From NCBI RefSeq assembly GCF_000382445.1, contig NZ_KB905474.1:310001-374000 (forward strand): a DNA stretch of 64,000 bases. The letters run 5' to 3'. Position numbers and translations under genes: made by a program. This DNA is from Phocaeicola massiliensis B84634 = Timone 84634 = DSM 17679 = JCM 13223. GTDB lineage: Bacteria > Bacteroidota > Bacteroidia > Bacteroidales > Bacteroidaceae. The notes below the pieces were generated by a model that worked only from the letters and a program-made list of their open reading frames with translations, searched no databases and was not told the DNA's origin. Positions 537 to 32,438 of the stretch are shown here, piece after piece; the first letter of the stretch is position 1; each line of letters begins with the position of its first letter.

Positions 537-559
537 AGCGTTTGGCGACATAAACACTC

Positions 560-1414: not shown

Positions 1415-1432
1415 TTATAATATGAATATAGT

Positions 1433-2191: not shown

Positions 2192-2209
2192 AACATCAAT
2201 CCGTACATT

Positions 2210-2434: not shown

Positions 2435-2450
2435 CGAAAACAATCAGACT

Positions 2451-4028: not shown

Positions 4029-4031
4029 ACC

Positions 4032-6584: not shown

Positions 6585-6598
6585 AAACGGAACTGACA

Positions 6599-7282: not shown

Positions 7283-7295
7283 AAACAGACAACGT

Positions 7296-7961: not shown

Positions 7962-7986
7962 GGATATGAATCAATAGGTAAACAGC

Positions 7987-9122: not shown

Positions 9123-9130
9123 TACACAAC

Positions 9131-10930: not shown

Positions 10931-10957
10931 TTCCATGAACAATAAAAGCATGATGAT

Positions 10958-13219: not shown

Positions 13220-13231
13220 GGAGTGACGATT

Positions 13232-14788: not shown

Positions 14789-14800
14789 AGGCATGGCGAT

Positions 14801-14977
14801 ATGGTAAAATGCGTGATGATACAGCTATGCAAATGTCTGGCGGGAGTCTCCATCCTTGCGTTGCACGTCCGGTTCTGCTACCTGCTGTTGGGGTGGATCG
14901 GGACGCTCGTTGTCGTGGGCGTGCAATTAGCCATCGCCGGATGGATGGTCTGGGCGATGATACGTGCGCCTGACTGA
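14801..14977 (+). CDS. Small membrane protein, 58 aa
   Basis: A short ORF starting MVKCVMIQLCKCLAGVSI, 12 bases after the muramidase-M23 stop. It has two hydrophobic helices (about residues 9-20 and 27-52, LLGWIGTLVVVGVQLAIAG) and ends IRAPD. Position, spacing and a clear membrane profile support a real gene. It could anchor a channel component or regulate the adjacent hydrolase. No family is recognised. Confidence 0.5.
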   Translation: MVKCVMIQLCKCLAGVSILALHVRFCYLLLGWIGTLVVVGVQLAIAGWMVWAMIRAPD

Positions 14978-15059
14978 CCGTACCCTCCAACAGTTCAACA
15001 TCAATCAACCCATGTATCACTTGTCGGATGATCCATGTATCATTAAAGACAAAAAACAG

Positions 15060-15668
15060 ATGATTAAATGTAATGTTACGGTATGCGGCGTTATCGGCCG
15101 CGATGCGTCGGTTCGCAAGAACAGAGAGGAAAAGGAGTTTATGGCATTTCCGCTCCGGGTACAGATTCCGGCAACGGGTGGACGGCATACTATCGAGGTG
15201 GATGTCCGCAAGGAGTGCAGTCAGGAAGAAGCCACCGGTTATCGGAACGGCTCCCGTGTGGAAGTGAGGGGTACGATGTATCTCAAACGCCGGGGTGACA
15301 AGCTCTATTTCAACCTGTTCGCCGATGAAATCTGCAATGCCGCTACGGATGATGCGGATTGCGTCAAGGGTGAGCTGGCATTTCGTGGTAAAGTCGGCCA
15401 GAATATCGAGGAGAAAAGGGATAAGAAAGACCAGCCTTATACGGTGTTCTCGGCGTTCAGTGCGGAGAAGGTCGATGACGGCTTCGAATACCAGTGGGTG
15501 CGCTTCTTCTGTTTCGGCAAGGAGCGCGATGCGTGGCTACAGCCGGGTATAAAGGTGGATGCCATAGGTGAAATGAACCTGTCGGCACATAACGGGAAAA
15601 TCAATCTTTCCTGCAAGGTGGAGGAACTGACGCAATATGTGGCGGATTCGTCTAACTATAATCAGTAA
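15060..15668 (+). CDS. Tandem OB-fold, SSB-like protein
   Basis: 202 residues from ATG 15060; starts at 14964 or 15012 are possible but lie in poorly conserved sequence. Two OB-fold units are visible: residues 1-100 (VTVCGVIGRDASVRKNREEK, FPLRVQIPATGG, VRGTMYL) and residues 108-195 (AFRGKVGQNIEEKRDKKDQP, FFCFGKERDAWL, GEMNLSAHNG). The pattern is that of single-stranded-DNA-binding proteins, possibly with the two folds in one chain. There is no acidic C-terminal tail. It lies just before an ArdC gene, fitting protection of transferred single strands. A separate SSB is encoded at 40481. Confidence 0.65.
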   Translation: MIKCNVTVCGVIGRDASVRKNREEKEFMAFPLRVQIPATGGRHTIEVDVRKECSQEEATGYRNGSRVEVRGTMYLKRRGDKLYFNLFADEICNAATDDADCVKGELAFRGKVGQNIEEKRDKKDQPYTVFSAFSAEKVDDGFEYQWVRFFCFGKERDAWLQPGIKVDAIGEMNLSAHNGKINLSCKVEELTQYVADSSNYNQ

Positions 15669-15673
15669 GTAAT

Positions 15674-17362
15674 ATGGCCGGTTACAGAAAGAAGAATGCC
15701 GACGGACCGAACAGCGAGGACAAGGCTCTCGACCTGTTCGCCGAAATGATGATCGAGAAAATCGAGGGCATTCAAAAGGACTGGAAAAAGCCTTGGTTTA
15801 CCGAGGGTGCGTTGCAGTGGCCTCGCAACCTTCACGGGCGCGAGTACAACGGGATGAATGCTTTTATGCTGCTTTTGCACTGCGAGAAAGAAGGGTACAA
15901 GATTCCCCGTTTCTGCACCTTCGATTGTGTTCAGAAGCTCAATAAGTCCGGCAAGGATGGAGAGGAACTGCCGCGTGTCTCCGTGCTTCGTGGCGAGAAG
16001 TCCTTTCCGGTCATGCTCACCACGTTCACTTGTATCCATAAGGAGACCAAGGAGAAAATCAAGTATGACGATTACAAGAAACTCTCCGATGACGAAAAGG
16101 AACAGTACAATGTTTATCCGAAGATGCAGGTTTTCAGGGTCTTCAATGTTGCGCAGACCAATTTGCAGGAAGCGCGACCGGAGCTGTGGCAAAAACTGGA
16201 GCAGGAAAATTCGCGTCCGGCAATCGAGGAGGGCGAGCATTACAGTTTTGCCCCAGTCGATACGATGATAAGGGATAACCTGTGGATTTGTCCGATTACG
16301 CCGAAATATCAGAATGACGCCTACTATTCCATCACGAAGAATGAAATCATCGTGCCGGAAAAGGAACAGTTCAGATCGGGAGAATCGTTTTACGGGACAC
16401 TGTTCCATGAGATGACGCACTCGACCGGTGCGGAGGGTGTTCTCGATCGGTTCAAGCCGACTACCTTCGGTTCTCCTGAATATGCCCGTGAGGAACTGGT
16501 GGCAGAGTTAGGTAGCGCACTGGTCGCACAGCGTTACGGCATGACCAAGCATATCAAGGAAGAAAGTTGTGCATACCTCAAAGGATGGCTCGATGAGCTG
16601 AAGGAATCGCCGCAATTCATCAAGACAACGCTCCTGGACGTGAAAAGGGCAACCTCGATAATTACCCAGAAGGTGGATAAGATAGCGCAAGAACTGGAAC
16701 AAAATGTCGGCGAGAAGCAGGAAAACGGAGCGGCGGCAAAGGAGAAGACATTTTATTCCTCTGTCGCGTATCTCCAATTTTCGGATGACACGAGGCCGCT
16801 TGACGAACTCCGGGAGAAAGGCGATTGCGAGGGATTGCTGACGCTTGCCAAGGAGTATTACGACGGCAACGGCATCAACGAACAGCATACTTATTTATCA
16901 GCCACGAACAACAAGGGTGACAGCCTAATTGCCGAGGATGAGAATTTCGCTGTCGTGTACAACGGGAGTGTCGGGGGAACCTACGAGGTGATGTTGAAAT
17001 TCACGGAGCAGGAAATTCGCGACCATATCCGGCGTTACGGTGTCGATATCGCCGGAGATACAATAAAAGGGGTTGCCAGGGAGATGGCGGCGGAACAGTT
17101 CTCCGCTTTGGCGTATCAAAAGATTCCGGCCTTCGAGATGCCGAACGGTGAAGTGCTATATGTCGAATATAACAAGGAATCCGATACGCTTGATGTCGGG
17201 CAACCCACCAATGCCGGGCTGGTCGCGCAGCATCGTTTCCCTTACGACCACAATGTCGGGCTGGATGCCAATCTGCAAGCCGTGAACGAGAAGCTGAACG
17301 AGCTGGAAGAGTATCGGGCAGAACTACAAGAGGCAGAATACGGCAGCGGTATGCGCCGGTAA
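15674..17362 (+). CDS. ArdC-family antirestriction protein with zincin domain
   Basis: 562 residues. Residues 1-150 are the ArdC N-terminal ssDNA-binding domain (WKKPWFTEGALQWPRNLHGR, YNGMNAFMLLLHCEKEGY, VLRGEKSFPVML). Residues 160-300 are the zincin-like metallopeptidase domain: HEMTHSTG gives the HExxH zinc motif, and the downstream Glu lies in REELVAELGSAL. A C-terminal extension of about 200 residues is unassigned. ArdC proteins protect incoming plasmid or ICE DNA from restriction. It is the last gene of the operon, followed by an intrinsic terminator. Confidence 0.85.
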   Translation: MAGYRKKNADGPNSEDKALDLFAEMMIEKIEGIQKDWKKPWFTEGALQWPRNLHGREYNGMNAFMLLLHCEKEGYKIPRFCTFDCVQKLNKSGKDGEELPRVSVLRGEKSFPVMLTTFTCIHKETKEKIKYDDYKKLSDDEKEQYNVYPKMQVFRVFNVAQTNLQEARPELWQKLEQENSRPAIEEGEHYSFAPVDTMIRDNLWICPITPKYQNDAYYSITKNEIIVPEKEQFRSGESFYGTLFHEMTHSTGAEGVLDRFKPTTFGSPEYAREELVAELGSALVAQRYGMTKHIKEESCAYLKGWLDELKESPQFIKTTLLDVKRATSIITQKVDKIAQELEQNVGEKQENGAAAKEKTFYSSVAYLQFSDDTRPLDELREKGDCEGLLTLAKEYYDGNGINEQHTYLSATNNKGDSLIAEDENFAVVYNGSVGGTYEVMLKFTEQEIRDHIRRYGVDIAGDTIKGVAREMAAEQFSALAYQKIPAFEMPNGEVLYVEYNKESDTLDVGQPTNAGLVAQHRFPYDHNVGLDANLQAVNEKLNELEEYRAELQEAEYGSGMRR

Positions 17363-17374
17363 GGATGGAAAGAA

Positions 17375-17407
17375 AAAGATGCGGAACTGGTTGGCTCCGC
17401 ATCTTTT
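17375..17407 (+). terminator. Intrinsic terminator of the 16-kb operon
   Basis: AGATGCGGA and TCCGCATCT form a perfect stem with a 10-base loop, extended by A/T pairs and followed by a U-run. A preceding A-run makes it work for the convergent minus-strand genes as well. Confidence 0.9.
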
Positions 17408-17414
17408 TTGCAGT

Positions 17415-17789
17415 TTATTTCCCCAACAAACCGTCTATCATAGACTGTAAATTTGCTATGTCGCAATACTGGTTACATCCCCCTCGGTAGTCCTTTCCAT
17501 TTTGAGCTGTCCGTATCAGAAACGAATCGAGTTCAATTCTTACGCCGCTGCCCATTCGTGACAGACCGGAAGAGTGGCTGATGTAAACGAACTTGCCGTT
17601 GCGCTCAATGAAGCAGGAGGTGTCATAATGCCCTTTTGAATTGGAAGCCACCTTTGCACCAACGGCTGCGGCATATTTGGAAATCTCACGCACCAATGCT
17701 GTCTGGAAACTGCGGTACTCTTTTGAAACATAGTCTCCTGCATCTGCAAGTATAGCGTCCTGCCATTTGGTATAAAAATTCTGTGCCAT
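17415..17789 (-). CDS. Hypothetical accessory protein, 124 aa
   Basis: The start MAQNFYTKWQDAIL at 17789 is preferred; further in-frame codons to 17831 overlap the preceding gene. It is a soluble protein with a helical N-terminal half and a beta-rich middle (DTSCFIERNGKFVYISHSS). It is the last of three consecutive minus-strand genes and sits directly after the shared terminator. Small gene groups like this are typical accessory cargo of ICEs and may include toxin-immunity or defence parts, but no motif allows an assignment. Confidence 0.55.
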   Translation of the reverse strand: MAQNFYTKWQDAILADAGDYVSKEYRSFQTALVREISKYAAAVGAKVASNSKGHYDTSCFIERNGKFVYISHSSGLSRMGSGVRIELDSFLIRTAQNGKDYRGGCNQYCDIANLQSMIDGLLGK

Positions 17790-17803
17790 ATTGATATTTA
17801 TTA

Positions 17804-18058
17804 TTATTCGTTCCGCAAATAACTTTTCCATTTCTCGCCGTCAATGGTCAGTTTGCCCATTTCCCAATCGTATTCCACTTCCGGTATATTGGTATAAGGG
17901 AAATGAACGGTGTAGCCTATCTGTCCGTAAGAGCAATGCAGAGGGGTAACGCAAATCTCCCAACCGAAGTAAGATTGCGGCGTGCAGTATTTTCGCCAGT
18001 TGAAACGACCTGCGGCAATATTGCCGCAAAGTCGTTTGAGTATGTCGTTTGTTGTCAT
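17804..18058 (-). CDS. Hypothetical accessory protein, 84 aa
   Basis: The start MTTNDILKRLCGNIAAGRF at 18058 overlaps the upstream stop as ATGA, which fixes the start and implies translational coupling. The protein has aromatic-rich beta-type segments (SYFGWEICVTPLHCSYG, VEYDWEMGKLTIDGE). It has no signal or membrane segment. No family is recognised. Confidence 0.55.
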   Translation of the reverse strand: MTTNDILKRLCGNIAAGRFNWRKYCTPQSYFGWEICVTPLHCSYGQIGYTVHFPYTNIPEVEYDWEMGKLTIDGEKWKSYLRNE

Positions 18059-19430: not shown

Positions 19431-19946
19431 AATTGTAAATTTTAGATTGTCAAATATTTTCTTTTTTTCCTTTTCTTGAAACTCTTTTGGCTTCTCGTCG
19501 GGGAATGATTTTTATGCAGGACTGACAGCGGGAAAAGGACGGATAAGGCAAGTAAACAGTGTACGGGATGAAACGGAATACCCAACCGCCCAATGTAAGA
19601 GCACAGTCAGGCTCGTCCGACTATGCCCTGCAACGAGGTGGGGAGTGAAAGTCAATCTTCGATTTGTGGAAGGCTGCCGTGAAGAATATCCGGGAACCGT
19701 TAGTGAAAGCGATACTTGACGACCAGACGCACGCTGTACCTTTGCATATAAAATCTCTCCGAAGAGAATTGCCGACGTGAGATGAAAAGAGACCATAATT
19801 GAGAAACGCTATTATTCATAAGGGGAAAAGACTATTCGTGGTTGTTATAAATGCTTGATTAACATGAAAATACAATTCGCGCCATAAAATAATCCTTTCT
19901 TGAAATAAAAATCACAGAAAAAGAAACAAGATTAAAAAATAACCAT
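19431..19946. other. Gene-free leader region between accessory gene and B12 operon
   Basis: About 515 bases with no supported gene. The left part carries the shared leader block CCTTTTCTTGAAACT followed by CTTTTGGCTTC (19469-19494). At 19736-19745 GTACCTTTGC with ACTTG 18 bases upstream copies the arrangement at 18746. From 19800 the sequence becomes A/T-rich and leads to the riboswitch promoter. Confidence 0.4.
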
Positions 19947-19954
19947 TAACTTTG
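19947..19954 (+). promoter_or_regulatory. Promoter of the B12-uptake operon
   Basis: TAACTTTG fits the TAnnTTTG -7 consensus and lies about 25 bases before the first riboswitch element, so transcription should start near 19961. Confidence 0.65.
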
Positions 19955-19974
19955 CACCAGTCAAGTTTCCAATC

Positions 19975-20125
19975 GAAGCGTCGAACGGAATTAAAAGGGA
20001 ATCCCGGTGAAAATCCGGAGCTGTACTCGCAGCTGTAAGTCCTATTAAAGTTTATCGCACTCTTTGCCACTGGTGAAAGCTGGGAAGGCGCGATAAGCGG
20101 GATGAGCCAGAAGACCTGCTTGATG
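19975..20125 (+). promoter_or_regulatory. Cobalamin (B12) riboswitch
   Basis: The conserved cobalamin aptamer blocks appear in order: GGGAATCCCGGTGAAAATCC, GGAGCTGTACTCGCAGCTG, the B12 box GCCACTGGTGAAAGCTGGGA with AAGGCG, then GATGAGCCAGAAGACCTGC. Boundaries are approximate to about 10 bases. Adenosyl- or methylcobalamin binding would lower expression of the operon from 20295. About 170 bases separate the aptamer from the first start codon; no intrinsic terminator is seen there, so control of translation is more likely. Confidence 0.95.
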
Positions 20126-20294
20126 AGATAGATTTAGTGACCACGGGATAATTGGCATTAGATTAAAATGAACAGAGGCTCGTCCACAGGCACCTATATT
20201 CTTTTTGATAACCGATTTCTCATTCGTTGCAAATCTGTCGCAATAAAAACGAATGTGTGTTTAAACTTTTTGTTTAACTTTTAATAATTAAGTT

Positions 20295-21263
20295 ATGAAA
20301 AAGAATTTTAGATTCTTGGCAATGGCTGTTGTAGCAATGGCCGCCGCAGTGTTCACGGGATGTTCATCCGACGATGACTTCCTTGCTCCGTATGAGGAGA
20401 GTGCGATTCAAACCCGCGCGATAAGTTCTACCAATGCGCTTATCGATTTTGATAACGTACCTTCCAGCGTAATGGCTTCTGACCAGTATGGAAACAATCT
20501 CTATTCTGCCACGGCCAACGGCAAGCAGGTAACGACCGGCTACATCACTCAAATCGGGCAAACCGGTACGTACATTCAGTTCCCGATTAACTATTTGGAA
20601 CAAGAATGGGTAAGCGGACAGCCTTGGGAATATGAATTTTGGAATGGTGGTTTTGCCATCTCTAATTTCCATAATCTGACACAGGGGGATTATCAAAACC
20701 AATGTAGCGTGTACTGGCCCAACGGCGGTCATAGCGGTAAAAATTTTGCTGTAGCTTTCGGTTATAGCGATTCATACAATGATTCACAAGCAACCTATGA
20801 CAAATGTGCGAAGATTTACCTGACCGATGCAACCGGCTACAGAGTCGTTACCACAAACACTCCTGTCAAGGGTACACCGAAATATGGTAAATTCAACAGC
20901 GTATGGGTTTGTAATACGACTTATACCTACTTAGTCATGAAGGATGGCAACTCGTTTACACAAGGCTCTTTGTCGGCACAAAAAGGATGGTTTAAGGTGG
21001 TATTTGTTGCGTTGGATGCGACGGGTAAACCTACAGGTAAGGAAGTAGAATACTATTTGGCAAACTTCGATTCCAGTAAAGATGCAGAATCAGGTTTGAC
21101 CAATAAAATCCGTACCGGATGGAATCAAGTGGATTTAAGCGGTTTAGGTGACAGCGTATGTACTGTAGCTATCAATTTCGAAGGAAGCGATTCAAGCGCA
21201 TACGGATTGAACACTCCTGCTTACGTTGCTATAGACGATATTGATGTAACCGTAAACGAATAA
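20295..21263 (+). CDS. btuH: BtuH-type surface B12-binding lipoprotein (DUF4465)
   Basis: 322 residues. A lipoprotein signal (about residues 1-23, FTGC lipobox) is followed by SSDDDF, the acidic signature that sends Bacteroidetes lipoproteins to the cell surface. The body has DUF4465 features: FDNVPSS near residue 52, FWNGGFAISNFHN around 118, GGHSGKNFAVAFGYSDSYN around 147, and a C-terminal AYVAIDDIDVTV strand. Members encoded at btuB loci bind cobalamin at the outer surface (the BtuH class). It is the first gene after the riboswitch. A strong hairpin with U-run follows it, so it is probably expressed above the downstream genes. A/T-rich compared with btuB. Confidence 0.8.
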   Translation: MKKNFRFLAMAVVAMAAAVFTGCSSDDDFLAPYEESAIQTRAISSTNALIDFDNVPSSVMASDQYGNNLYSATANGKQVTTGYITQIGQTGTYIQFPINYLEQEWVSGQPWEYEFWNGGFAISNFHNLTQGDYQNQCSVYWPNGGHSGKNFAVAFGYSDSYNDSQATYDKCAKIYLTDATGYRVVTTNTPVKGTPKYGKFNSVWVCNTTYTYLVMKDGNSFTQGSLSAQKGWFKVVFVALDATGKPTGKEVEYYLANFDSSKDAESGLTNKIRTGWNQVDLSGLGDSVCTVAINFEGSDSSAYGLNTPAYVAIDDIDVTVNE

Positions 21264-21272
21264 CATGAATTT

Positions 21273-21319
21273 GGGGCAAATGCTTTTTAACGGCAAGTGC
21301 AAAGTATTTGCCCCTTTTT
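21273..21319 (+). terminator. Terminator-like hairpin inside the B12 operon
   Basis: GGGGCAAATGCTTT and AAAGTATTTGCCCC form a 14-pair stem (one G-T) around a 14-base loop, followed by TTTTTATT. It sits between btuH and the next lipoprotein gene and should stop part of the transcripts, or it may protect the btuH message from decay. Confidence 0.75.
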
Positions 21320-21390
21320 ATTATATCCCAATGGAGATTGGAATCAAATACTTTCTTCAAGGGAATTTCAGCATTAAAATTATAAATATA

Positions 21391-23166
21391 ATGAAGAAGT
21401 ATTTGCTTTTATTCTCCTTGACGATATTTCTATTTGCATGCAACAAAGACGAAGAAATATCGCAGGACGTGATATTGCCTCCTGTCATTGAGTTGGATAG
21501 CGAGGACGGAATCTACGTTGTAAAGATAGGAAAAGAGGTCGTTATTGAGCCGACCTATCAGAATGTCGATTACGCCGTTTATTCATGGAAATGCAACGGT
21601 CGTATCATTTCCGACGAGCCTCAATTGAAATACATTTTCAACGAATGCGGTTCGTATTACGTTACCCTGCGTGTGGATACGAGGGATGCCAGCACAGAGG
21701 AAGAAATTCGTGTGGATGTCAATGAATTGGCTCCGCCCGTTATTTCATTGGTAACCCCCTCTATAGGGCTTAAAGTTGTCGCAGGACGTGAGTATATCCT
21801 TACACCCGACATTCAAAATGCAGAAGGAGCTACTTATTTGTGGACTCTTAACGGAAACGAAGTCGGAACGGAAAATACTTATACATTCAAGCAAGATGAG
21901 TTGGGAACTTATGAACTGACCTTAACCGTAACAAATGAAGACGGACAATCAAAGAAGACAGTTTCTATTGAGGTTGTCGATAAACTTCCGATTGAAATCG
22001 TAGTTCCGTCATCTTTATATTTTACCGAGAATAATACCAAATACGTAGAATTAGGACGTACTTTGTTTGTCCGCCCCTTTGTATCAATAAGTGCCGAGCC
22101 TTCTTATCAATGGAGTTTGGACGGGCAACCGATTGAGGGAGCCAATTCTTTGGTTTACGGTTTCAAACCCGCTAAAACCGGAGAACACACGCTTACCTTT
22201 ACTGTGAAATACGACAATCAAGATACAAAAGCAGTGCTCACCCGTAATATTTCGGTCTCCGGTGTCGATGAAGTCAGTGTCAATATTCCGGTGAAATGTT
22301 GTGAAGCGGCCGGAAAAAGACCTTTTGCTGCCGGAAATTCCATTTACAGCAATAAAGTATATGAATTTGTTCCGGCTCCGGGACAATTTGTAAACGAAAC
22401 GAATACAGCAGGTTTCAATGGGGAAAGCACGCACGAAGCAGCCTGTGCTTACGCACAAAAACGTCTTGATAATGAACAATATGTTTCTCTCGGAGGTTGG
22501 GGAGGATATATTGTAGTAGGATTCGACCACAGTATCGAAAACAAAGGCGGTTATGATTTTTCCATCAAAGGAAATGCCTTTGATTCGTCAAATGAACCGG
22601 GCATTGTATGGGTAATGCAAGATGTCAATGGAGACGGCTTGCCCAACGATGAATGGTATGAACTGAAGGGTTCTGAATATGGAAAACCCGAAACCATTCA
22701 GGACTATGCCGTAACTTATTTCCGTCCCGGTCCCAACATGGACACCCAATGGCAAGACAACAAGGGAAATAAAGGGGCGATTGACCGTCTCGGCAACTAT
22801 CACCCGCAAGAGTTTTATTATCCTTTGTGGATTGAAGAGGATTCCTATACGTTATACGGCACATGCCTGAAAGCACGTACCGAACAAAGCCCGTCGACAG
22901 GCATGTGGTCCAATAATCCGTTCGGGTGGGGATATGCCGATAATATTGGTGATGATATGCCCAATAAAGACAATCCTAACGCGGGAGCACTTGGAAACTA
23001 TTTTAAGATTTCCGATGCGCTCAATATCGACGGCACGTCTGCAAACCTTTCCCATATCGACTTTATCAAGGTGCAGACCGGAGTCAATGTAAAAGCCGGA
23101 TGGTTAGGGGAAAATTCCACGGAAGTTTTCAAGTTCTGTGATGAAAACAACAATAACGACAAATAA
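21391..23166 (+). CDS. PKD-repeat surface lipoprotein of the B12 locus
   Basis: ATG 21391 gives a good lipoprotein signal (MKKYLLLFSLTIFLFAC) followed by NKDEE, a surface-export signature; the open frame to 21265 crosses a terminator and is rejected. 591 residues. Three Ig/PKD-like repeats span about residues 30-300, each with a YxWxxNG or YQWSLDGQ core. The C-terminal 270 residues are a distinct domain (VNIPVKCCEAAGKRPFAAGN, YVSLGGWGGYIVVGFDHSIE, NEPGIVWVMQDVNGDGLPND). Such proteins occur at Bacteroidetes corrinoid loci and may capture B12 or bind its carrier. That is inference from position and surface signal; no ligand site is identified. Confidence 0.65.
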   Translation: MKKYLLLFSLTIFLFACNKDEEISQDVILPPVIELDSEDGIYVVKIGKEVVIEPTYQNVDYAVYSWKCNGRIISDEPQLKYIFNECGSYYVTLRVDTRDASTEEEIRVDVNELAPPVISLVTPSIGLKVVAGREYILTPDIQNAEGATYLWTLNGNEVGTENTYTFKQDELGTYELTLTVTNEDGQSKKTVSIEVVDKLPIEIVVPSSLYFTENNTKYVELGRTLFVRPFVSISAEPSYQWSLDGQPIEGANSLVYGFKPAKTGEHTLTFTVKYDNQDTKAVLTRNISVSGVDEVSVNIPVKCCEAAGKRPFAAGNSIYSNKVYEFVPAPGQFVNETNTAGFNGESTHEAACAYAQKRLDNEQYVSLGGWGGYIVVGFDHSIENKGGYDFSIKGNAFDSSNEPGIVWVMQDVNGDGLPNDEWYELKGSEYGKPETIQDYAVTYFRPGPNMDTQWQDNKGNKGAIDRLGNYHPQEFYYPLWIEEDSYTLYGTCLKARTEQSPSTGMWSNNPFGWGYADNIGDDMPNKDNPNAGALGNYFKISDALNIDGTSANLSHIDFIKVQTGVNVKAGWLGENSTEVFKFCDENNNNDK

Positions 23167-23174
23167 AATTCATT

Positions 23175-25229
23175 ATGAACAAAATATATCATTTCATCCT
23201 ATTCTGTTTCGCTACGCTCTGCCTTGCTGCATGTAGTGATGACGACCCTGAAGTAAGCGGAATAGACGGCAAGGATCACTTCATCTCCGAGTTTGCTCTA
23301 ACTGTAGATGGCATTACCTATCAAGCCATGATAGTCGGGGACAAGATTACAGTTGAGATACCTTATAATACCAGTCTGAAAGGGGCTACCGTAGAGTATG
23401 CCCTTTGCGAGGGAGCCTCTATTAACCCGAATCCATCGACCATAGAGGATTGGGAGAATGAATGGAAATTCGTAGTTACCTCCAAAATGCAGGATAGCAA
23501 AGTATATTCCTATACTTATCAATATACAGACATCGAACAGAGCGGCAGCGTAGTACTTGCCACGCAAGCCGAGGTTGATAATTTTGCAAAGACAGGAATA
23601 AACAAAATCGAAGGCAGCCTGACCATCGGAACGGCAGACGGAGAAGAAATCACCAATCTGGACGGACTTGCCAACCTGAAACAAATCAGTAACTCCCTTG
23701 TCATCAATCCGTCTTACAAAGGAACGGATTTGACCGGGTTGGATAATCTGGAACAACTCGGAAGTTTCAAATTAGGTTCGACAACTTCTGCCAGTAAAAA
23801 CATAATGCTCAAAACGGTTAATCTGCCCTCTTTGCTTGGAGTGACCGGTGATTTTGTCGTTAACAGTTCTGTCATTGAAAAAATATCTATACCCAAAGTC
23901 GAGTTCATTGGTGAGGATATGTATATAACTTCCGATGCTTTACTTGATTTGGATGCAAATGCCGTTGAATCTGTCGGAGCTTCCTTAATTGTCAAAGGTT
24001 CGGTAGCACAAAAAGAATCAGCGACAACCGAAGCCATTGTTTTCTCAGCGCTCAAACAGGTCGGGAATGAACTTACAATCCAATATTTTCCCAAACTGCA
24101 AGGAATTTATCTACCGGCATTGGAAAGTGTGGCCGGTACTGCCTCATTCTCCGATATGTCCTCCATCGGAAGTCTTGCAATGACCGAATTACATTCGGTT
24201 GGAGGACTAACTATAAAAAATTGCAAAGAAATTTCCATTGTTGAACTTCCCGGTCTTATTTCCTGCGGAGAGACCAGTGTGGATGCGAATAAAGTCAATA
24301 AACTCAATATAGCTTCTTTGAAAGATGTACTCGGTGATATGACTTTAACTAATCTGCTCATAGAAGAACTGGATTTGTCCCAGATAAATTTTAACGGAAA
24401 TACACTTACCCTACAATGTAAGCAACTAAATAAAATCGTAGGATCGGAAACATTTAACGGTAGCCTTTTTCTACTTCCTAAAGATTGTCGATTGACAGAA
24501 TTTACGTTGGAAGGAATCTCAAATATACAGGGTGACTTCCAATGCATAGATTATTTTTATGTAAAAGAATTTGTTATGCCATTTATTCGTGTGGCAGGAG
24601 ATATGACTATTGCATTGAATTCGGGAAGTGTTAATACGGCGGCGGAAATCGAATTTCCTAAATTGCAGGAAATTGGAGGGACCTTAACATTAGGGACAAA
24701 TAGGAATGCAAATAATATTACCTTCCCGTTATTGAAAAAAATTCTCGGTTCATGTTCAGTTACGACTTACAAACTTAAGAATGATATTGAGTTTACCAAT
24801 CTGGAAAGCATTGGAACGGATGGAGCTGATGCACAAATTAAGTTTGAGATTGAGGCTACTAATATTCTATGTCCCAAATTAAAAACGATAAATGGGAAGT
24901 TTGATATTGCAACATCTTCTTTTATGTTTGATATGGAAGTAGATAAAGTATCTTATCCTAACGTAGAATCAATATCCGAAAATCTTTCAATAACATGCCC
25001 GTATTCTGATTTTGGTTCTAATGGTATTTTGTCCATTGATTTTTCAGGTCTCAAATCAGCAAAAGGGATTAGTATAAGCGGGCAAGGAGATGTTACTGAT
25101 TTCAGTTCTTTCAAATACCTGTTTGAAAACAATGTTCTAACAGGAGAATCTCAATGGTCTGTCAAAGAATGTGGTTACAACCCCACTTTCCAAGAGATGA
25201 AAGACGGGAAGTACAAGCTTGCCGAATAG
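23175..25229 (+). CDS. Leucine-rich-repeat surface lipoprotein of the B12 locus
   Basis: 684 residues. Signal and lipobox (LAAC, Cys about 20) are followed by SDDDPE, the surface-export signature. Residues 30-115 form a beta-sandwich-like domain of the DUF5018 sort (FISEFALTVDGITYQAMI). Residues 130-660 are irregular leucine-rich, receptor-L-like repeats (LDGLANLKQISNSLVI, LTGLDNLEQLGSF and others, about 23 residues each). Such folds bind proteins or ligands at the cell surface. Within a riboswitch-controlled operon it may assist corrinoid capture, or recognise host or bacterial B12-binding proteins. Strongly A/T-rich toward the 3' end. No function is proven for the family. Confidence 0.65.
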   Translation: MNKIYHFILFCFATLCLAACSDDDPEVSGIDGKDHFISEFALTVDGITYQAMIVGDKITVEIPYNTSLKGATVEYALCEGASINPNPSTIEDWENEWKFVVTSKMQDSKVYSYTYQYTDIEQSGSVVLATQAEVDNFAKTGINKIEGSLTIGTADGEEITNLDGLANLKQISNSLVINPSYKGTDLTGLDNLEQLGSFKLGSTTSASKNIMLKTVNLPSLLGVTGDFVVNSSVIEKISIPKVEFIGEDMYITSDALLDLDANAVESVGASLIVKGSVAQKESATTEAIVFSALKQVGNELTIQYFPKLQGIYLPALESVAGTASFSDMSSIGSLAMTELHSVGGLTIKNCKEISIVELPGLISCGETSVDANKVNKLNIASLKDVLGDMTLTNLLIEELDLSQINFNGNTLTLQCKQLNKIVGSETFNGSLFLLPKDCRLTEFTLEGISNIQGDFQCIDYFYVKEFVMPFIRVAGDMTIALNSGSVNTAAEIEFPKLQEIGGTLTLGTNRNANNITFPLLKKILGSCSVTTYKLKNDIEFTNLESIGTDGADAQIKFEIEATNILCPKLKTINGKFDIATSSFMFDMEVDKVSYPNVESISENLSITCPYSDFGSNGILSIDFSGLKSAKGISISGQGDVTDFSSFKYLFENNVLTGESQWSVKECGYNPTFQEMKDGKYKLAE

Positions 25230-25257
25230 ATAACGAAACAATAAATTTTCTGCCAAT

Positions 25258-25292
25258 CCTCGGTATGCTTACCGTAAGGTAAGCTGCCGGGG
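25258..25292 (+). repeat. Stable hairpin upstream of btuG
   Basis: CCTCGGTATGCTTACC and GGTAAGCTGCCGGGG pair over about 15 positions with a GTAA loop and one bulge. There is no U-run after it. It lies 21 bases before the btuG start and marks the change from A/T-rich to G/C-rich sequence. It may stabilise the downstream message, or be a joint left by module exchange. Confidence 0.6.
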
Positions 25293-25313
25293 ATTAACTA
25301 TAAAAATAACGGT

Positions 25314-26393
25314 ATGACCTATCACCAATTGAAATATCTGCTATGGAGCGTAGTTGTCGGAGTGACACTATCCTTGACATCCTGCATGAAGTGGGACTAC
25401 GGCGATGCCGTGGAAGATTTCAACGCCACGGGAGCCGGACTGTTCATCACCAACGAGGGCAACTTCCAGTACGGCAATGCTACCTTGTCCTATTACGACC
25501 CGGCAACCAAACAGGTGCAGAACGAAATCTTCTTCCGTGCCAACGGCATGAAACTCGGCGACGTGGCACAGTCGATGACCATCTACGACAACAAGGGCTG
25601 GGTCGTGGTGAACAACTCCCACGTGATTTTCGCCATCGACCTGAACACCTTCAAGGAGGTAGGACGCATCGAGAACCTGACCTCACCGCGCTACATTCAT
25701 TTCCTAAGCGACGAAAAAGCATACGTCACCCAATTGTGGGACAACCGCATCTTCATCATCAACCCGAAGAAATACGAAATTACCGGCTATATTCAAGTGC
25801 CGGACATGACGATGGAAAGCGGCTCGACGGAGCAAATGGTGCAGTACGGCAAATACGTCTATTGCAACTGCTGGAGTTACCAGAACCGCATCATCAAAAT
25901 CGACACCGAAACCGATCAAGTAGTCGATGAACTGAAGGTCGGCATACAACCGACATCGCTGGTCATGGACAAGTACAACAAAATGTGGACGGTGACCGAC
26001 GGCGGTTATGAGGGCAGCCCCTACGGTTACGAAGCCCCGTCGCTCTACCGCATCGATGCCGAGACCTTCACCGTGGAGAAGCAGTTCAAGTTCAAGTTGG
26101 GCGACTGGCCCTCGGAGGTGCAGCTCAATGGCGACAGGGACAAACTCTACTGGATCAACAAGGCCATTTGGAGCATGGACGTGACAGCCAGCCATGTGCC
26201 GGTACGTCCGTTCCTCGAATACAGCGGCACGATTTATTACGGACTGACGGTAAACCCCGCCAACGGAGAAGTGTACATCGCCGATGCCATCGATTACCAG
26301 CAGCAGGGCATGATATACCGCTACTCGCCCGAAGGGAAATTGATAGATGAATTTTATGTCGGGATTATCCCCGGTGCATTTTGTTGGAAATGA
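25314..26393 (+). CDS. btuG: BtuG-type surface cobalamin-binding lipoprotein
   Basis: 359 residues. A lipobox (LTSC, about Cys24) follows a hydrophobic signal. The body is a seven-bladed beta-propeller of the YVTN/DUF5074 type: NEGNFQYGNATLSYYDPATK, VVVNNSHVIFAIDLNTFKEV, YVTQLWDNRIFIINPKK, GIQPTSLVMDKYNKMWTVTD, GLTVNPANGEVYIADAID. BtuG proteins cap BtuB on the cell surface and bind B12 with very high affinity, passing it to the transporter. Placement just upstream of btuB supports the call. The stop overlaps the next gene as ATGA. Codon use is much more G/C-rich than in the three lipoprotein genes before it. Confidence 0.85.
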   Translation: MTYHQLKYLLWSVVVGVTLSLTSCMKWDYGDAVEDFNATGAGLFITNEGNFQYGNATLSYYDPATKQVQNEIFFRANGMKLGDVAQSMTIYDNKGWVVVNNSHVIFAIDLNTFKEVGRIENLTSPRYIHFLSDEKAYVTQLWDNRIFIINPKKYEITGYIQVPDMTMESGSTEQMVQYGKYVYCNCWSYQNRIIKIDTETDQVVDELKVGIQPTSLVMDKYNKMWTVTDGGYEGSPYGYEAPSLYRIDAETFTVEKQFKFKLGDWPSEVQLNGDRDKLYWINKAIWSMDVTASHVPVRPFLEYSGTIYYGLTVNPANGEVYIADAIDYQQQGMIYRYSPEGKLIDEFYVGIIPGAFCWK

Positions 26394-26890
26394 AGAATAA
26401 ATTGCGGCATATATACCATATTATTTTCATCACGAAAAGACAGGAGATGACGATTCCAATGACAACCAAAGGAATGATTCTCGATCAGATGGTACAAATT
26501 TTCACAAGGAAAGGCTGTCATGTCTATGCCTGCAATGCTTTTCTCAATCATGTTCATATACTTGTAGAGATACCATCTCCCACGGACTTCGCAAAGATTA
26601 TCAATAAAGTAAAAAGTTCTACAGGCGTTGTCTATCGAAAATATCCGGAATATGCGGATTTTTCAGGATGGGCAGCCGGATTTGATTCGTTTAGCGTGTC
26701 ATTCAATGATCTGAATCGGGTAAAACACCACATTGAGAAACAAGAGACGGTTCATCAGGAACTTTCATTCGAGGACGAATACGACCAACTGCTTGAAGAA
26801 AACGGATTCAATGCCTATCAAGATTTTATGCGGGCATCATTCTCTGCATATGCTGCGGTAAATAACCATATTAAAAACAAAAGGAAATGA
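26390..26890 (+). CDS. Y1/HUH (IS200-type) transposase-like protein, likely domesticated
   Basis: 166 residues, about the length of an IS200/IS605 TnpA. The HUH metal motif is intact (FLNHVHILVE, about residues 44-53). The family places the nucleophile Tyr in a YIxxQ-type motif; here the same position reads HHIEKQ, so Tyr is replaced by His. The C-terminal SFEDEYDQLLEENGFNAYQDF is the usual tail of this family in Bacteroidetes. The start ATG overlaps the btuG stop, and the stop overlaps the btuB start, both as ATGA. No transposon ends or target repeats are seen at the gene edges. Base composition is lower in G/C than both neighbours. It probably does not transpose and may act as a nucleic-acid-binding protein in the B12 operon. 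Confidence 0.8.
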   Translation: MKNKLRHIYHIIFITKRQEMTIPMTTKGMILDQMVQIFTRKGCHVYACNAFLNHVHILVEIPSPTDFAKIINKVKSSTGVVYRKYPEYADFSGWAAGFDSFSVSFNDLNRVKHHIEKQETVHQELSFEDEYDQLLEENGFNAYQDFMRASFSAYAAVNNHIKNKRK

Positions 26891-28965
26891 CATATACAAA
26901 ATATTTACTTTTCTCAATATTGGTTGTCTGTCCATCCGTGCTGTCTGCGCAGGGAATCACCCGGCGTATTCACCAGATAGACGAGGTGACCGTATGGGGC
27001 AAACGGCCGATGAAGGAAATCGGCGTGCAGAAGACGAAGTTCGATTCACTCGCACTGAAAGAAAATATCGCCCTCTCGATGGCGGACATCCTGACGTTCA
27101 ACTCGTCCGTGTTTGTCAAGAGCTACGGCCGCGCCACGCTCTCGACCGTCGCCTTCCGAGGCACGTCGCCCAGCCATACGCAGGTGACGTGGAACGGGAT
27201 GCGCATCAACAACCCCATGCTCGGCATGACCGACTTCTCCACCATTCCGTCCTACTTCATCGACCGGGCATCGCTGCTGCACGGTACTTCATCGGTGAAC
27301 GAAACGGGCGGTGGACTGGGCGGTCTGGTCAAACTCGGCACGGCTCCTGAAGTCGCTGAAGGGTTCAACGCCCAGTACGTGCAGGGCATCGGCTCGTTCA
27401 AGACCTTCGATGAGTTCGCCCGCTTCACCTACGGAAGTGAGCGGTGGCACGTCTCCACCCGTGCGGTCTATTCTTCCTCGCCTAACGATTACAAGTACAC
27501 CAACCACGACAAAAAGATAAACATCTACGACGAGGATAAGAACATCGTCGGACAGTATCACCCGAAAGAGCGCAACCGCTCCGGGGCGTTCAAGGACCTG
27601 CATTTGCTTCAGGAAGTGTATTACAATACCGGGAAAGGCGACCGTTTCGGGCTGAACGCCTGGTATATCAACTCCAACCGGGAACTTCCGATGTTGACGA
27701 CCGACTATGGAGATGCAACCGACTTCGAGAACCGCCAGCGAGAACAGACGTTCCGCAGCGTCTTGTCCTGGGATCACATGAAAAGCAACTGGAAACTCGG
27801 CGTGAAAGGCGGTTACATACACACATGGATGGCCTACGACTACAAGCGTGAGGTCGCACCTGACAACTGGGCGTCGATGACCCGCTCCCGCAGCAAGGTA
27901 AACACGTTTTACGGTCAGGCGGAGGGAGAGTATTCTTTGGATAAAAAATGGTTTTTCACCGCCAATGTATCGGCACACCAGCATTTGGTACGGAGCGAGG
28001 ACAAGAACATCATCTTGCAGGACGGTGGCAAGGCCATCGTGGGCTATGACAAGGGGCGCGTGGAACTCTCCGGCTCCGTATCCGCCAAGTGGCAGCCGAT
28101 AGACCGCTTGGGTATGTCGGTGGTACTGCGGGAAGAGATGTATGGTTCCGATTGGATTCCACTCATTCCGGCTTTCTTCATTGACGGTATCATTTCCCCG
28201 AAAGGAAATGTGATGCTGAAAGCATCCATATCGCGTAACTACCGTTTCCCAACTCTGAACGACCTATACTTTTTGCCGGGAGGTAATCCCAACCTGAAAA
28301 ACGAACAAGGTTTCAGTTATGATGCCGGGGTGAGTTTCGATGTCGGCAAGAAAGGCATTTACAAGTTGAGCGGCGGTGCGAACTGGTTCGACTCCTACAT
28401 CGACGACTGGATTATCTGGCTGCCCACCACCAAGGGCTTCTTCTCGCCCCGCAACGTAAAGAAGGTCCACGCCTACGGCGTCGAGGTCAAAGCGAACTTC
28501 GCCGTGCAGCCGGCGAAAGATTGGCTCATCGACTTGAACGGGTCCTATTCGTGGACACCCTCCATCAATGAAGGTGAGAAGATGTCGCCTGCTGACCAGT
28601 CAGTGGGCAAGCAGTTACCCTACGTGCCGAAGCACTCCGCATCGCTGACCGGACGGTTGTCGTGGCGGACTTGGGCGTTCCTTTACAAATGGGCGTTCTA
28701 CTCGGAACGTTACACCATGTCGAGCAACGACTATACGCTGACAGGACACCTGCCCGAATATTTCATGAGCAATGTCTCGTTGGAGAAAAACCTGTTTTTC
28801 AAACCGGTGGACATCCAGTTAAAATTCGCCGTCAACAACCTCTTCAACGAGGACTACCTTTCGGTACTCTCGCGCCCCATGCCCGGCATCAACTTCGAGT
28901 TCTTCATCGGCATTACCCCGAAGTTCGGGAAAAACAAGAAAAAGTCCGAAAATACAAATATGTAA
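26887..28965 (+). CDS. btuB: TonB-dependent B12 outer-membrane transporter BtuB
   Basis: 692 residues with a signal peptide (about residues 1-21). A TonB box-like IDEVTVWG (31-38) is followed by the plug domain (FVKSYGRATLSTVAFRGTSP, TQVTWNGMRINNPMLGM, GTSSVNETGGGLGG) and a 22-stranded barrel ending in an aromatic strand (FEFFIGITPKFGK). The gene lies between a cobalamin-binding propeller and btuFCD genes under a cobalamin riboswitch, which fixes the substrate as B12 or other corrinoids. The start overlaps the upstream stop as ATGA, so translation is coupled to the transposase-like gene. Confidence 0.92.
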   Translation: MTYTKYLLFSILVVCPSVLSAQGITRRIHQIDEVTVWGKRPMKEIGVQKTKFDSLALKENIALSMADILTFNSSVFVKSYGRATLSTVAFRGTSPSHTQVTWNGMRINNPMLGMTDFSTIPSYFIDRASLLHGTSSVNETGGGLGGLVKLGTAPEVAEGFNAQYVQGIGSFKTFDEFARFTYGSERWHVSTRAVYSSSPNDYKYTNHDKKINIYDEDKNIVGQYHPKERNRSGAFKDLHLLQEVYYNTGKGDRFGLNAWYINSNRELPMLTTDYGDATDFENRQREQTFRSVLSWDHMKSNWKLGVKGGYIHTWMAYDYKREVAPDNWASMTRSRSKVNTFYGQAEGEYSLDKKWFFTANVSAHQHLVRSEDKNIILQDGGKAIVGYDKGRVELSGSVSAKWQPIDRLGMSVVLREEMYGSDWIPLIPAFFIDGIISPKGNVMLKASISRNYRFPTLNDLYFLPGGNPNLKNEQGFSYDAGVSFDVGKKGIYKLSGGANWFDSYIDDWIIWLPTTKGFFSPRNVKKVHAYGVEVKANFAVQPAKDWLIDLNGSYSWTPSINEGEKMSPADQSVGKQLPYVPKHSASLTGRLSWRTWAFLYKWAFYSERYTMSSNDYTLTGHLPEYFMSNVSLEKNLFFKPVDIQLKFAVNNLFNEDYLSVLSRPMPGINFEFFIGITPKFGKNKKKSENTNM

Positions 28966-28969: not shown

Positions 28970-30109
28970 ATGAAAGCATTAAAGAATTTAAGCCTGCTGT
29001 TGCTACTTGTATTGGCATTCACAGGCTGCCACAATAAAAGTTCAAAACTCGCCGATTTCAACCGAACGGTCTATACACCTGAATACGCTTCGGGGTTTGA
29101 CATAAAAGGTGCAGACGGCAAAAAGAGCGTATTGGTTACCGTCACGAACCCTTGGCAGGGCGCCGACAGCATCACTACGAACCTGTTCATTGCCCGTGAT
29201 GACGAAGAGGTTCCGGCGGATTTCACCGGTCAGATGCTCAAGGGGGATGCCGAGCGCATCGTCTGCATGTCCTCGACCCATATCGCCATGCTCGACGCAA
29301 TCGGCGAAACGGGACGCGTAGTCGGCGTGTCAGGCATCGACTACATCTCCAATCCCGACATTCAGGCACGGCGGGACAGCGTTGGAGATGTGGGCTACGA
29401 AGGGAACATCAATTACGAACTGCTGCTCTCGCTTGACCCCGACCTCGTGTTGCTTTACGGCGTGAACGGGGCAAGCTCGATGGAGGGTAAGCTCAAAGAG
29501 TTGGATATCCCGTTCATGTATGTCGGCGATTACCTCGAAGAGTCTCCGCTGGGCAAAGCCGAATGGCTGGTGGCACTTTCGGAGGTTATCGGAAAACGGG
29601 CGGAGGGCGAAAAAGTATTCGCGGAAATCCCCGTCAGATACAATGTCCTGAAAAAGAAAGTAGCGGACAATATCCTCGACGCTCCGTCAGTCATGCTCAA
29701 CACGCCTTACGGCGACAGCTGGTTCATGCCCTCGACCGAAAGCTATGTCGCCCGGTTAATCAAAGATGCCGGAGGCGATTACATCTACAAGAAGAACACA
29801 GGAAACGCTTCCGCGCCCATCGACCTCGAAGAGGCGTATCTGCTGGCCTCGCAAGCCGATATGTGGCTGCATGTGGGGATGGCGAACACGCTTGATGAAC
29901 TGAAAGCCGCATGCCCGAAGTTCATCGACACCCGCTGTTTCCGTGGTGGACAGGTCTATAACAACAACGCCCGCACCAATGCTGCTGGCGGCAACGACTA
30001 CTATGAGTCGGCGGTCGTAAATCCCGACCTCGTGCTGCGAGACCTCGTGAAGATATTCCACCCCGAACTGGTCGAGGAAGATTTCGTCTATTACAAGCAA
30101 CTGAAATAG
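28970..30109 (+). CDS. btuF: B12 ABC transporter substrate-binding lipoprotein BtuF
   Basis: 379 residues, lipoprotein signal with Cys20 (AFTGC). It is a class III periplasmic binding protein as in siderophore and B12 systems: RIVCMSSTHIAMLDAIGE, VVGVSGIDYI, INYELLLSLDPDLVLLYG, then a long helix and a C-lobe with SWFMPSTESYVARLIKDAGG. It would take cobalamin from BtuB in the periplasm and deliver it to BtuCD. It is larger than E. coli BtuF, as is common in Bacteroidetes. It is 4 bases after btuB and abuts btuC without a gap. Confidence 0.88.
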   Translation: MKALKNLSLLLLLVLAFTGCHNKSSKLADFNRTVYTPEYASGFDIKGADGKKSVLVTVTNPWQGADSITTNLFIARDDEEVPADFTGQMLKGDAERIVCMSSTHIAMLDAIGETGRVVGVSGIDYISNPDIQARRDSVGDVGYEGNINYELLLSLDPDLVLLYGVNGASSMEGKLKELDIPFMYVGDYLEESPLGKAEWLVALSEVIGKRAEGEKVFAEIPVRYNVLKKKVADNILDAPSVMLNTPYGDSWFMPSTESYVARLIKDAGGDYIYKKNTGNASAPIDLEEAYLLASQADMWLHVGMANTLDELKAACPKFIDTRCFRGGQVYNNNARTNAAGGNDYYESAVVNPDLVLRDLVKIFHPELVEEDFVYYKQLK

Positions 30110-31090
30110 ATGCGCTCCCGTTCCGCCATATTGTTTGCCATGCTGGCCGCCCTCACCCTTTTCCTGTTTCTGCTGGATTTGGCGGTGGGGGCAGTCGCCG
30201 TACCGCTCGGCGATGTATGGGCGGCTTTGACGGGCGGCGACTGCCCGCGGGCGACGGCGAAAATTATACTGAATATCCGACTGATTAAGGCGGTGGTCGC
30301 GTTGCTGGCCGGAGCAGCTCTGTCGGTCAGCGGTCTTCAGATGCAAACCCTCTTCCGCAATCCTCTTGCCGGCCCCTACGTGCTCGGCATCAGTTCGGGC
30401 GCGAGCCTCGGCGTGGCACTCGTCGTGCTTGCAGGCTTCGGTTCGTCGATAGGCATTGCCGGGGCGGCTTGGCTCGGAGCGGCGCTCGTGCTGGTCGTCA
30501 TCGCCGCCGTCGGCCACCGCATCAAGGACATCATGGTGATTCTGATTCTCGGCATGATGTTCTCGTCGGGAGTCGGCGCGATTGTACAGATATTGCAATA
30601 TCTCAGCAAGGAAGAATCCCTGAAAGCCTTTGTCATTTGGACGATGGGGTCGCTCGGCGACGTGACCTTCGACCAGCTTGCGGTACTCGTCCCGTCGATT
30701 ATCGCCGGACTGTTGTTGGCGGTGGTGACGATCAAGCCGCTCAACTTACTGCTGTTCGGCGAGGAGTATGCCGTGACGATGGGGCTGAACATCCGACGCT
30801 CGCGCGGGCTGCTGTTCCTCTCCACGACGCTGCTTGCTGGTACGGTGACCGCCTTTTGCGGTCCGATAGGCTTCATCGGACTGGCCATGCCCCACGTCAC
30901 GAGAATGCTGTTCCGCAACAGCGACCATCGGGTACTCGTACCGGGAACCGTTCTTTCGGGTGCGGCGGTGCTGCTTCTTTGCGACCTCGTTTCTAAAATG
31001 TTCACCCTGCCGATCAACGCCATCACCGCATTGCTGGGAATCCCCATCGTGGTGTGGGTGGTCTTGCGCAATAAATCCGTCACCGCATGA
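30110..31090 (+). CDS. btuC: B12 ABC transporter permease BtuC
   Basis: 326 residues, about ten transmembrane helices, FecCD/BtuC family. Family blocks are VVALLAGAALSVSGLQMQTL, FRNPLAGPYVLGISSGASLG, WTMGSLGD, and GPIGFIGLAMPHVTRML near the cytoplasmic loop that contacts the ATPase. It starts directly after the btuF stop and overlaps btuD as ATGA. With BtuD it forms the inner-membrane cobalamin importer. Confidence 0.92.
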   Translation: MRSRSAILFAMLAALTLFLFLLDLAVGAVAVPLGDVWAALTGGDCPRATAKIILNIRLIKAVVALLAGAALSVSGLQMQTLFRNPLAGPYVLGISSGASLGVALVVLAGFGSSIGIAGAAWLGAALVLVVIAAVGHRIKDIMVILILGMMFSSGVGAIVQILQYLSKEESLKAFVIWTMGSLGDVTFDQLAVLVPSIIAGLLLAVVTIKPLNLLLFGEEYAVTMGLNIRRSRGLLFLSTTLLAGTVTAFCGPIGFIGLAMPHVTRMLFRNSDHRVLVPGTVLSGAAVLLLCDLVSKMFTLPINAITALLGIPIVVWVVLRNKSVTA

Positions 31091-31845
31091 TAAAGTTACA
31101 CGATTTTTCCATAGGCTACGGCGAGCGCACCTTGCTCTGCGAGGTGGAAACCACCATAGAAAAGGGCAGGCTGACTGCCCTTATCGGGCGCAACGGCACG
31201 GGCAAATCGACACTGCTTCGAGCCATCGCCGGACTGAACCGCCGTTATACCGGCCGAATCCTGCTCGACGGGCATAACGCCGCCGATATGCGAGCAGCAG
31301 AAATGGCCAGAACGCTGGCATTCGTCACGACCGAGCGCACACGCATCGCCAATCTCAAATGCAAGGATGTCGTGGCTATCGGCCGCGCACCCTATACCAA
31401 CTGGATTGGAAAGATGCAGGAGGTCGACAAGGAGATCGTCATGCGGTCGCTCGCCTCGGTGGGCATGGAGGCTTATGCGGAGCGCACGATGGACAAGATG
31501 TCGGACGGCGAGTGCCAGCGCATCATGATCGCACGGGCGTTGGCGCAGGATACGCCGATTATCCTGCTCGACGAACCCACCTCGTTTCTCGATATGCCCA
31601 ACCGCTACGAATTGTGTACACTGCTGGCACGGCTGGCGCATGAAGAAAACAAGTGCATCCTTTTTTCCACGCACGAGCTGGATATCGCCCTCTCGCTTGC
31701 CGATGCGATAGCCCTTATCGACCCACCCCAGTTGTCGTATATGCCGACCGAAGAGATGCGCCGGAGCGGCTGCATCGAGCGGCTGTTCCGAAATAATTGT
31801 GTGACGTTCGATGCCACGACAGGATTCATAAAAGTGGGACAATGA
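31087..31845 (+). CDS. btuD: B12 ABC transporter ATPase BtuD
   Basis: 252 residues. Walker A GRNGTGKST (34-42), signature MSDGECQR (138-145, a variant of LSGGQ with Asp at the third position), Walker B IILLDEPTS (158-166) and the H-loop STHELD are all present. It energises uptake through BtuC. The start overlaps btuC and the stop overlaps the DUF2284 gene, both as ATGA, so btuC, btuD and the last gene form a tightly coupled unit. Confidence 0.92.
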   Translation: MIKLHDFSIGYGERTLLCEVETTIEKGRLTALIGRNGTGKSTLLRAIAGLNRRYTGRILLDGHNAADMRAAEMARTLAFVTTERTRIANLKCKDVVAIGRAPYTNWIGKMQEVDKEIVMRSLASVGMEAYAERTMDKMSDGECQRIMIARALAQDTPIILLDEPTSFLDMPNRYELCTLLARLAHEENKCILFSTHELDIALSLADAIALIDPPQLSYMPTEEMRRSGCIERLFRNNCVTFDATTGFIKVGQ

Positions 31846-32438
31846 CTAAGGAATATATCATAGAGAATTTCACAGCAAATATCAGCGTGGACGAATATAT
31901 TTCACGCTTCCGGGACGAAAAACGTTTTGTCGAATTTTGCAAACAATGCCCCAACTACGGTAATAGTTGGGGATGCCCGCCGTTCGATTTCGATACCGGA
32001 GAATTTCTGCGCCAATATGAATATGCCCACCTGATGGCCACGAAAATAATTCCGGTCGAGAAAAATATTCCGATAGACAGAACGCAGGAATTGATTAAAC
32101 CGGAACGGCTCAGGATAGAAAGGGAATTGCTGGAAATGGAGCACAGATACGGAGGTCGGGCATTCGCCTATGTAGGAAAATGCCTATACTGTCCCGATTC
32201 CGAATGCGCCCGCAAATGCAACCGTCCTTGCCTGCATCCGGACAAAGTACGTCCCTCGCTTGAAGCATTCGGGTTCGATATGACACGAACACTCTCGGAA
32301 CTTTTCGGGATAGAGCTGCTTTGGGGAAAGGATGGTATTCTACCGGAATATCTTGTGATTGTAAGCGGATTATTTCATAATTCGGCAGAAAATATTATCA
32401 GTCATACGAAGCGTAATCAGGATTCAGGAAACCTATAA
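31842..32438 (+). CDS. DUF2284 predicted metal-binding protein
   Basis: ATG 31842 overlaps the btuD stop and is chosen over in-frame codons inside btuD. 198 residues with two Cys clusters: CKQCPNYGNSWGCPPF (about residues 33-48) and CLYCPDSECARKCNRPCLHP (about 114-133). These resemble the DUF2284 family, likely to bind iron-sulfur or another metal. Being last in a riboswitch-controlled cobalamin operon, and coupled to btuD, it may act on imported corrinoid, for example reduction or removal of the upper ligand, in the cytoplasm. That role is inference. G/C content is lower than in btuD. Confidence 0.75.
   Translation: MTKEYIIENFTANISVDEYISRFRDEKRFVEFCKQCPNYGNSWGCPPFDFDTGEFLRQYEYAHLMATKIIPVEKNIPIDRTQELIKPERLRIERELLEMEHRYGGRAFAYVGKCLYCPDSECARKCNRPCLHPDKVRPSLEAFGFDMTRTLSELFGIELLWGKDGILPEYLVIVSGLFHNSAENIISHTKRNQDSGNL

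Follow-up and report, generated by a model that had tools for sequence, protein, structure and literature searches.

A window of 64,000 nucleotides from Phocaeicola massiliensis B84634 (contig NZ_KB905474.1, positions 310,001 to 374,000) contains a vitamin B12 (btu) operon in which a gene derived from a Y1 transposase, encoding a protein of 166 amino acids (aa), is located between btuG and btuB. The HUH histidines of the transposase are retained, while the nucleophilic tyrosine is lost. Domestication of a Y1 transposase with loss of its nucleophile is very probable, and the sequence suggests that a transposase enzyme was tamed for another job inside the B12 operon. The explanation tentatively preferred, to which we assign a probability of about 0.4, is that the protein is a domesticated derivative of TnpA(Y1) subclass 1.2, acting as a nucleic-acid-binding regulator of BtuG and BtuB. 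Its support consists of the observed position, residue pattern, lack of border hairpins, purifying selection and conserved placement, together with a predicted fold.

The 3' end of btuG reads ...GGAAATGA, and the ATG of the transposase-derived gene lies inside the ATGA found there; the gene itself ends in ...AGGAAATGA, where a second ATGA contains the btuB ATG (Table 1). The location of the gene between btuG and btuB, overlapping both, is therefore confirmed as given in the first-pass annotation. Overlaps of this kind are ordinary operon packing, the btuC/btuD overlap being also of 4 nucleotides (nt). The gene is presumably co-transcribed and translationally coupled with btuG and btuB, and no signal for an internal promoter ahead of it was detected between 25200 and 27200, where 3 promoter-like sites were found against 2.7 expected.

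The Pfam family Y1_Tnp matches residues 6-118 of the protein with 56.4 bits (cut-off 23). Two NCBIfam models score lower than required, NF033573 (IS200 transposase) with 42.4 bits against a curated cut-off of 55 and NF047646 (REP-associated transposase) with 24.4 bits against 80. Pfam and the predicted structure both place a HUH fold, with its histidines, in this B12-operon protein, in support of the transposase derivation proposed earlier. Excerpts of PMC6006769 describe TnpA(Y1) subclass 1.2 as present in Bacteroidetes, at low copy and generally without IS200 ends, with a shorter core, a conserved C-terminal domain and the signature Y---Q--HH. The corresponding motif YIxNQxxHH was found by sequence alignment in many Tyr-bearing relatives of the window protein, and for this reason the most suitable reading of the clade formed by this protein and its closest relatives is that of a branch of subclass 1.2 which has lost the Tyr. 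Low copy, missing IS200 ends and occurrence in Bacteroidetes are common to both. In contrast, the window protein has H---Q--VH in place of the signature; across the clade the Tyr is changed to H, F, L or R in 19 of 20 rows and, of the HH pair, only the second His is kept. Furthermore, the nine relatives looked at are stand-alone genes, whereas the B12-operon gene is operonic. In one genome, two Tyr-bearing subclass 1.2-like genes are arranged in tandem (L072:5485-6845).

The active site was compared over 98 near-full-length rows, 20 of them assigned to the clade, several being near-duplicates, and 78 to other proteins. The Tyr of KYIExQ in four solved TnpA chains aligns to the variable position of the clade, which is occupied by H (12 rows), F (3), L (3), R (1) and Y (1, P0024). 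This column shows the largest entropy gain of the 135 comparable ones (1.70 vs 0.29 bits), ahead of a gain of 0.56 in the next column. HUH and Gln118 are present in 20/20 clade rows. Among the other rows, 73/78 have Tyr, one is without the second HUH His and one without the Gln. The five exceptions are P0030, P0004, P0005 and P0011, which are shortened or rearranged clade proteins (P0004 is gapped at the Tyr position), and P0038, a diverged relative with His. Tyr is kept in the sister family P0042 and P0089; the latter, of 34 members and 139 aa, has the Tyr motif YVEHQ. These comparisons bear out the change from Tyr to His, with HUH retained, reported in the first-pass annotation, and extend it from a single mutation to the whole clade. 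A protein without the nucleophilic Tyr should be incapable of tyrosine-mediated strand cleavage and joining. Gln118, unremarked in the earlier annotation, is invariant and the metal-site residues are kept, so that a protein dead for everything cannot be assumed; in IS608 TnpA the equivalent Q131 belongs to the metal site and is indispensable for transposition, according to excerpts of PMC6006769. The alignment does not support a three-His metal or corrinoid site formed by H54, H56 and H114, since 8/20 rows have F, L, R or Y at position 114.

Clade members were sought in several genome draws, which overlap one another. They were detected in 3/301 genomes of the family, 2/61 of the same genus, 4/158 of the genus of G149, 2/393 and 3/397 of the order and 1/9 of the family of G652; in a class draw of 395, the own genome alone was positive, apart from one 93-bit match (L119). 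Restriction of the gene to this strain, named in the first-pass annotation as an observation that would speak against domestication, is thus rejected. The distinct gene-bearing genomes are G000 (the own genome), G149 (two copies), G245, G652, G692, G734, G836 and G1059, spanning three family labels (f1, f106, f109), to which the phage-labelled faecal contig MT835494 is added. The order btuG, gene, btuB is found at 10/10 places, the placement of G1059 being taken from its 3.5-kb locus, which matches L064 at 100% identity. Only two DNA alleles exist among these places, and their proteins are 63% identical: the window type (G000, G149 C2, G692, G734) and the L064 type (G149 C1, G245, G652, G836, G1059, MT835494). 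Embedding in the operon has accordingly persisted in two alleles that have diverged. Across three families, copies of the L064 type show 99.94-100% identity over shared stretches of 3.5 to 19.9 kb, and this type has therefore moved recently. Purifying selection on the protein, a check proposed with the initial annotation, was found. Among protein clusters, the intact window-type P0001 and P0002 have 676 and 44 members, and another intact cluster has 875; P0020 apparently continues, as we read it, into out-of-frame btuB DNA. Viral contigs, searched with the window gene, A2, P0023, P0024, P0021 and P0089, gave no match or partial or 25-38% matches (L005, L114-L117), phage records only MT835494 and one 30% match, and plasmid records nothing beyond a 26-28% match. 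In the literature searched, no report was found of a transposase in btu operons or of a Tyr-less TnpA; the word 'transposase' occurs 0 times in the available portions of PMC8941943, PMC6143338 and PMC10404256.

No element ends are recognizable around the gene. DNA folds of 121 nt over both borders were no better than shuffles, for the window (z -0.38 and 0.23) as well as for the L064 allele (z -0.95 and -0.32). Repeat searches in 801 bases around the gene, local and at unlimited distance, found only short or imperfect pairs, such as a 28-nt, 71% direct pair at 26415/26865, none of which recurs at the L064 allele's borders. These results agree with the absence of visible insertion sequence (IS) ends originally noticed. 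A close second copy is missing from the own 4.65-Mb genome, where the other match is 29% identical (E 5.6e-4). The occurrence of close relatives as active IS elements had also been named as contrary evidence: no locus seen has both an intact Tyr and ends, although P0024 (57% identical) does keep the Tyr.

The gene thus differs from IS200/IS605 TnpA (IS608, ISDra2) in having no nucleophile Tyr, border hairpins or close second copy. It also belongs to a different class from TnpAREP/RAYT, domesticated Y1 proteins (structure 4er8; PMC8266576, seen in excerpt), which keep the Tyr within a motif Y---NP (class 2 in the same excerpts of PMC6006769), whereas the window protein has Q118 in place of NP and no Tyr. 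RAYTs are tied to repetitive extragenic palindromic (REP) hairpins; folds across the borders of the window gene showed no hairpins there. Y1 domestication is known through RAYTs, in which the Tyr persists; in the B12-operon clade, constraint has relaxed most at the nucleophile itself, the fold and the metal-site residues are preserved, and the gene has become part of a nutrient operon.

In the regulatory model, an IS200/IS605-like TnpA gene of subclass 1.2 would have been domesticated and have lost its nucleophilic Tyr, retaining the fold, the HUH histidines and the metal-ligand Gln. The ancestral ability to bind a nucleic-acid hairpin or single strand would persist, and the protein may act from within the operon, as a regulator or by binding mRNA, to tune the output of BtuG and BtuB, to whose dose its own would be tied by the frame overlaps. 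If so, a TnpA turned regulator would add a second control layer to B12 uptake, a system over which gut bacteria compete. A parallel may be drawn with the TldR family, which is related to TnpB. TldR proteins are described, in excerpts of PMC13418256, as RNA-guided transcription factors. By analogy, both would be transposon-linked proteins turned gene regulators, but TldR is a different protein and its regulation is reported, while that of the B12-operon gene is inferred. A broader version, rather doubtful, would make the cleavage-dead TnpA family hairpin-binding regulators alongside the cobalamin riboswitch of B12 operons, a TldR counterpart spread across gut Bacteroidales by integrative and conjugative elements (ICEs).

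Several observations weigh against a regulatory role. A btuG search matched 37/249 genomes at 38 places, and 30 loci were examined (G149 C1 is covered separately by L063): 5 carry the transposase-derived gene between btuG and btuB, 8 a PKD-type gene after btuG, and in 17/30 btuB directly follows btuG (six of these, L085-L090, are near-identical). The gene is dispensable in evolution. A sister ICE in G721 (L108) has the same operon and flanking ICE genes without it, and over 504 nt of leader the identity is 92.7%. The leader/riboswitch region, the pre-btuG hairpin, the borders and the repeats revealed no hairpin or motif confined to operons with the gene. Some alleles are truncated or rearranged (P0006, 64 members; P0007, 30 members), and the genomic context was seen for two alleles, roughly ten further alleles from protein databases being proteins alone. 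P0024 retains its Tyr inside the clade. Finally, most structure alignments to IS608 and ISDra2 stop at model residue 104-110, so that the Tyr position is based on sequence alignment and not on superposition. The pre-btuG hairpin (25255-25295) was rejected as a gene-specific target, since a similar one is present in gene-less L080/L081 and several other operons have terminator-like hairpins at this position.

The gene could instead be a passenger. In this view it would be a relic that forms a cassette with the 5' end of btuB and spreads from operon to operon by recombination, its sole role being translation continuity from btuG to btuB. In a comparison of 10 operons, the first ~40 btuB codons are common to the 2 gene-bearing alleles and different in the 8 gene-less ones, and the two gene-bearing alleles share 66-73% nucleotide identity within the gene vs 73-90% in the surrounding 100-column windows. 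The gene and the btuB 5' end could thus be a cassette exchanged between operons, the contrast being moderate. The broken alleles and the gene-less sister ICE point the same way. Purifying selection, the invariant metal-site residues and the existence of large intact clusters (676 and 875 members) speak against the passenger explanation, which we regard as unlikely. On the BtuG and BtuB trees, the gene-presence label has to change twice, a single change being enough for 0% and 16% of the trees among 200 bootstraps, because btuG of the window is more similar to its counterpart in gene-less L108 (95% identical) than to the one in the L064 type, which carries the gene (89%). A single clean gain is unsupported; a gain and a loss, two separate gains or exchange of a cassette are to be considered instead. 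An AGGAGG-type sequence precedes btuB in L080, L081 and L085 and is absent from the gene-bearing alleles, L084 and L091-L094.

Rather improbable is a Tyr-independent, metal-dependent nuclease or phosphoryl-transfer enzyme, using HUH/Gln with water or another nucleophile on operon mRNA or single-stranded DNA. It would explain why HUH and Gln118 stayed invariant while the Tyr position drifted, and H122 and Y131 are also invariant in a 15-row clade alignment. However, HUH enzymes are known to depend on the Tyr for cleavage, and a structural role may be what preserves the metal ligands. In a 52-row alignment including Tyr-bearing relatives, H122 is found in at least 90% of rows and Y131 is the majority residue; being common with these relatives, neither is a clade-specific new nucleophile. 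A role in mobile elements, for example in antagonizing active Y1 transposases or pairing with them as a dominant-negative partner, would fit the ICE-like DNA around the window-type gene and the near-identity of the L064 type across three families, but the constant location inside the btu operon and the lack of a close relative in the own genome make it quite improbable. An ordinary IS200/IS605 insertion, suggested by the Y1_Tnp match, is highly improbable given the lost Tyr, the missing border hairpins and second copy, and the double-overlap placement kept in two alleles.

Sister ICEs with and without the gene offer a natural pair for comparison, and the question therefore lends itself to direct testing. 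The coordinates of all features are reported in Table 1, where the genes are listed in operon order.

Table 1. Features of the B12 operon and of the transposase-derived gene; positions refer to the window.
Feature	Position	Strand	Basis
Cobalamin riboswitch at operon head	19946..20137	+	RF00174, 100.6 bits
DUF4465 gene	20295..21263	+	open reading frame (ORF), Pfam
PKD_3-domain gene	21265..23166	+	ORF, Pfam
DUF4971/Recep_L-like gene	23175..25229	+	ORF, Pfam
btuG, DUF5074 beta-propeller	25314..26393	+	ORF, Pfam
ATGA overlap, btuG stop / transposase-derived gene start	26390..26393	+	sequence
Tyr-less Y1_Tnp-derived gene, 166 aa	26390..26890	+	ORF, Pfam, predicted fold
HUH motif codons H54-V55-H56	26549..26557	+	sequence, alignments
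H114 codon, nucleophile-Tyr position	26729..26731	+	alignments
Q118 codon, +4 residue matching IS608 TnpA metal ligand Q131	26741..26743	+	alignments; role from excerpts of PMC6006769
ATGA overlap, transposase-derived gene stop / btuB start	26887..26890	+	sequence
btuB, TonB-dependent receptor	26887..28965	+	ORF, Pfam, NCBIfam
btuF, Peripla_BP_2	28970..30109	+	ORF, Pfam
btuC, FecCD	30110..31090	+	ORF, Pfam, NCBIfam
btuD, ABC ATPase	31087..31845	+	ORF, Pfam, NCBIfam
DUF2284 gene	31839..32438	+	ORF, Pfam

The hairpin at 25255-25295, with a perfect inner stem at 25268-25283, separates the DUF4971-like gene from btuG; terminator-like hairpins occupy the same place in several other btu operons, suggesting, in our reading, attenuation ahead of btuG. 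The three accessory genes preceding btuG are only 31-48% identical between L064:3585-8523 and window 20295-25229, against about 90% for btuG and btuB, which indicates modular exchange. Split genes were also observed. In the gene-less sister, about 2.1 kb of intervening DNA divides btuD (L108:2331-4474); the other two cases are the PKD gene in L065 and btuC in L113. The regions flanking the operon (1-18000 and 32500-64000) are ICE-like and encode ArdC-like proteins, a Mob_Pre relaxase, a hybrid histidine kinase, an EF-G-like protein, a topoisomerase, a methylase-helicase and DUF4099/DUF3945 proteins; the EF-G-like and histidine kinase genes we take to be tetQ/rteA-like.
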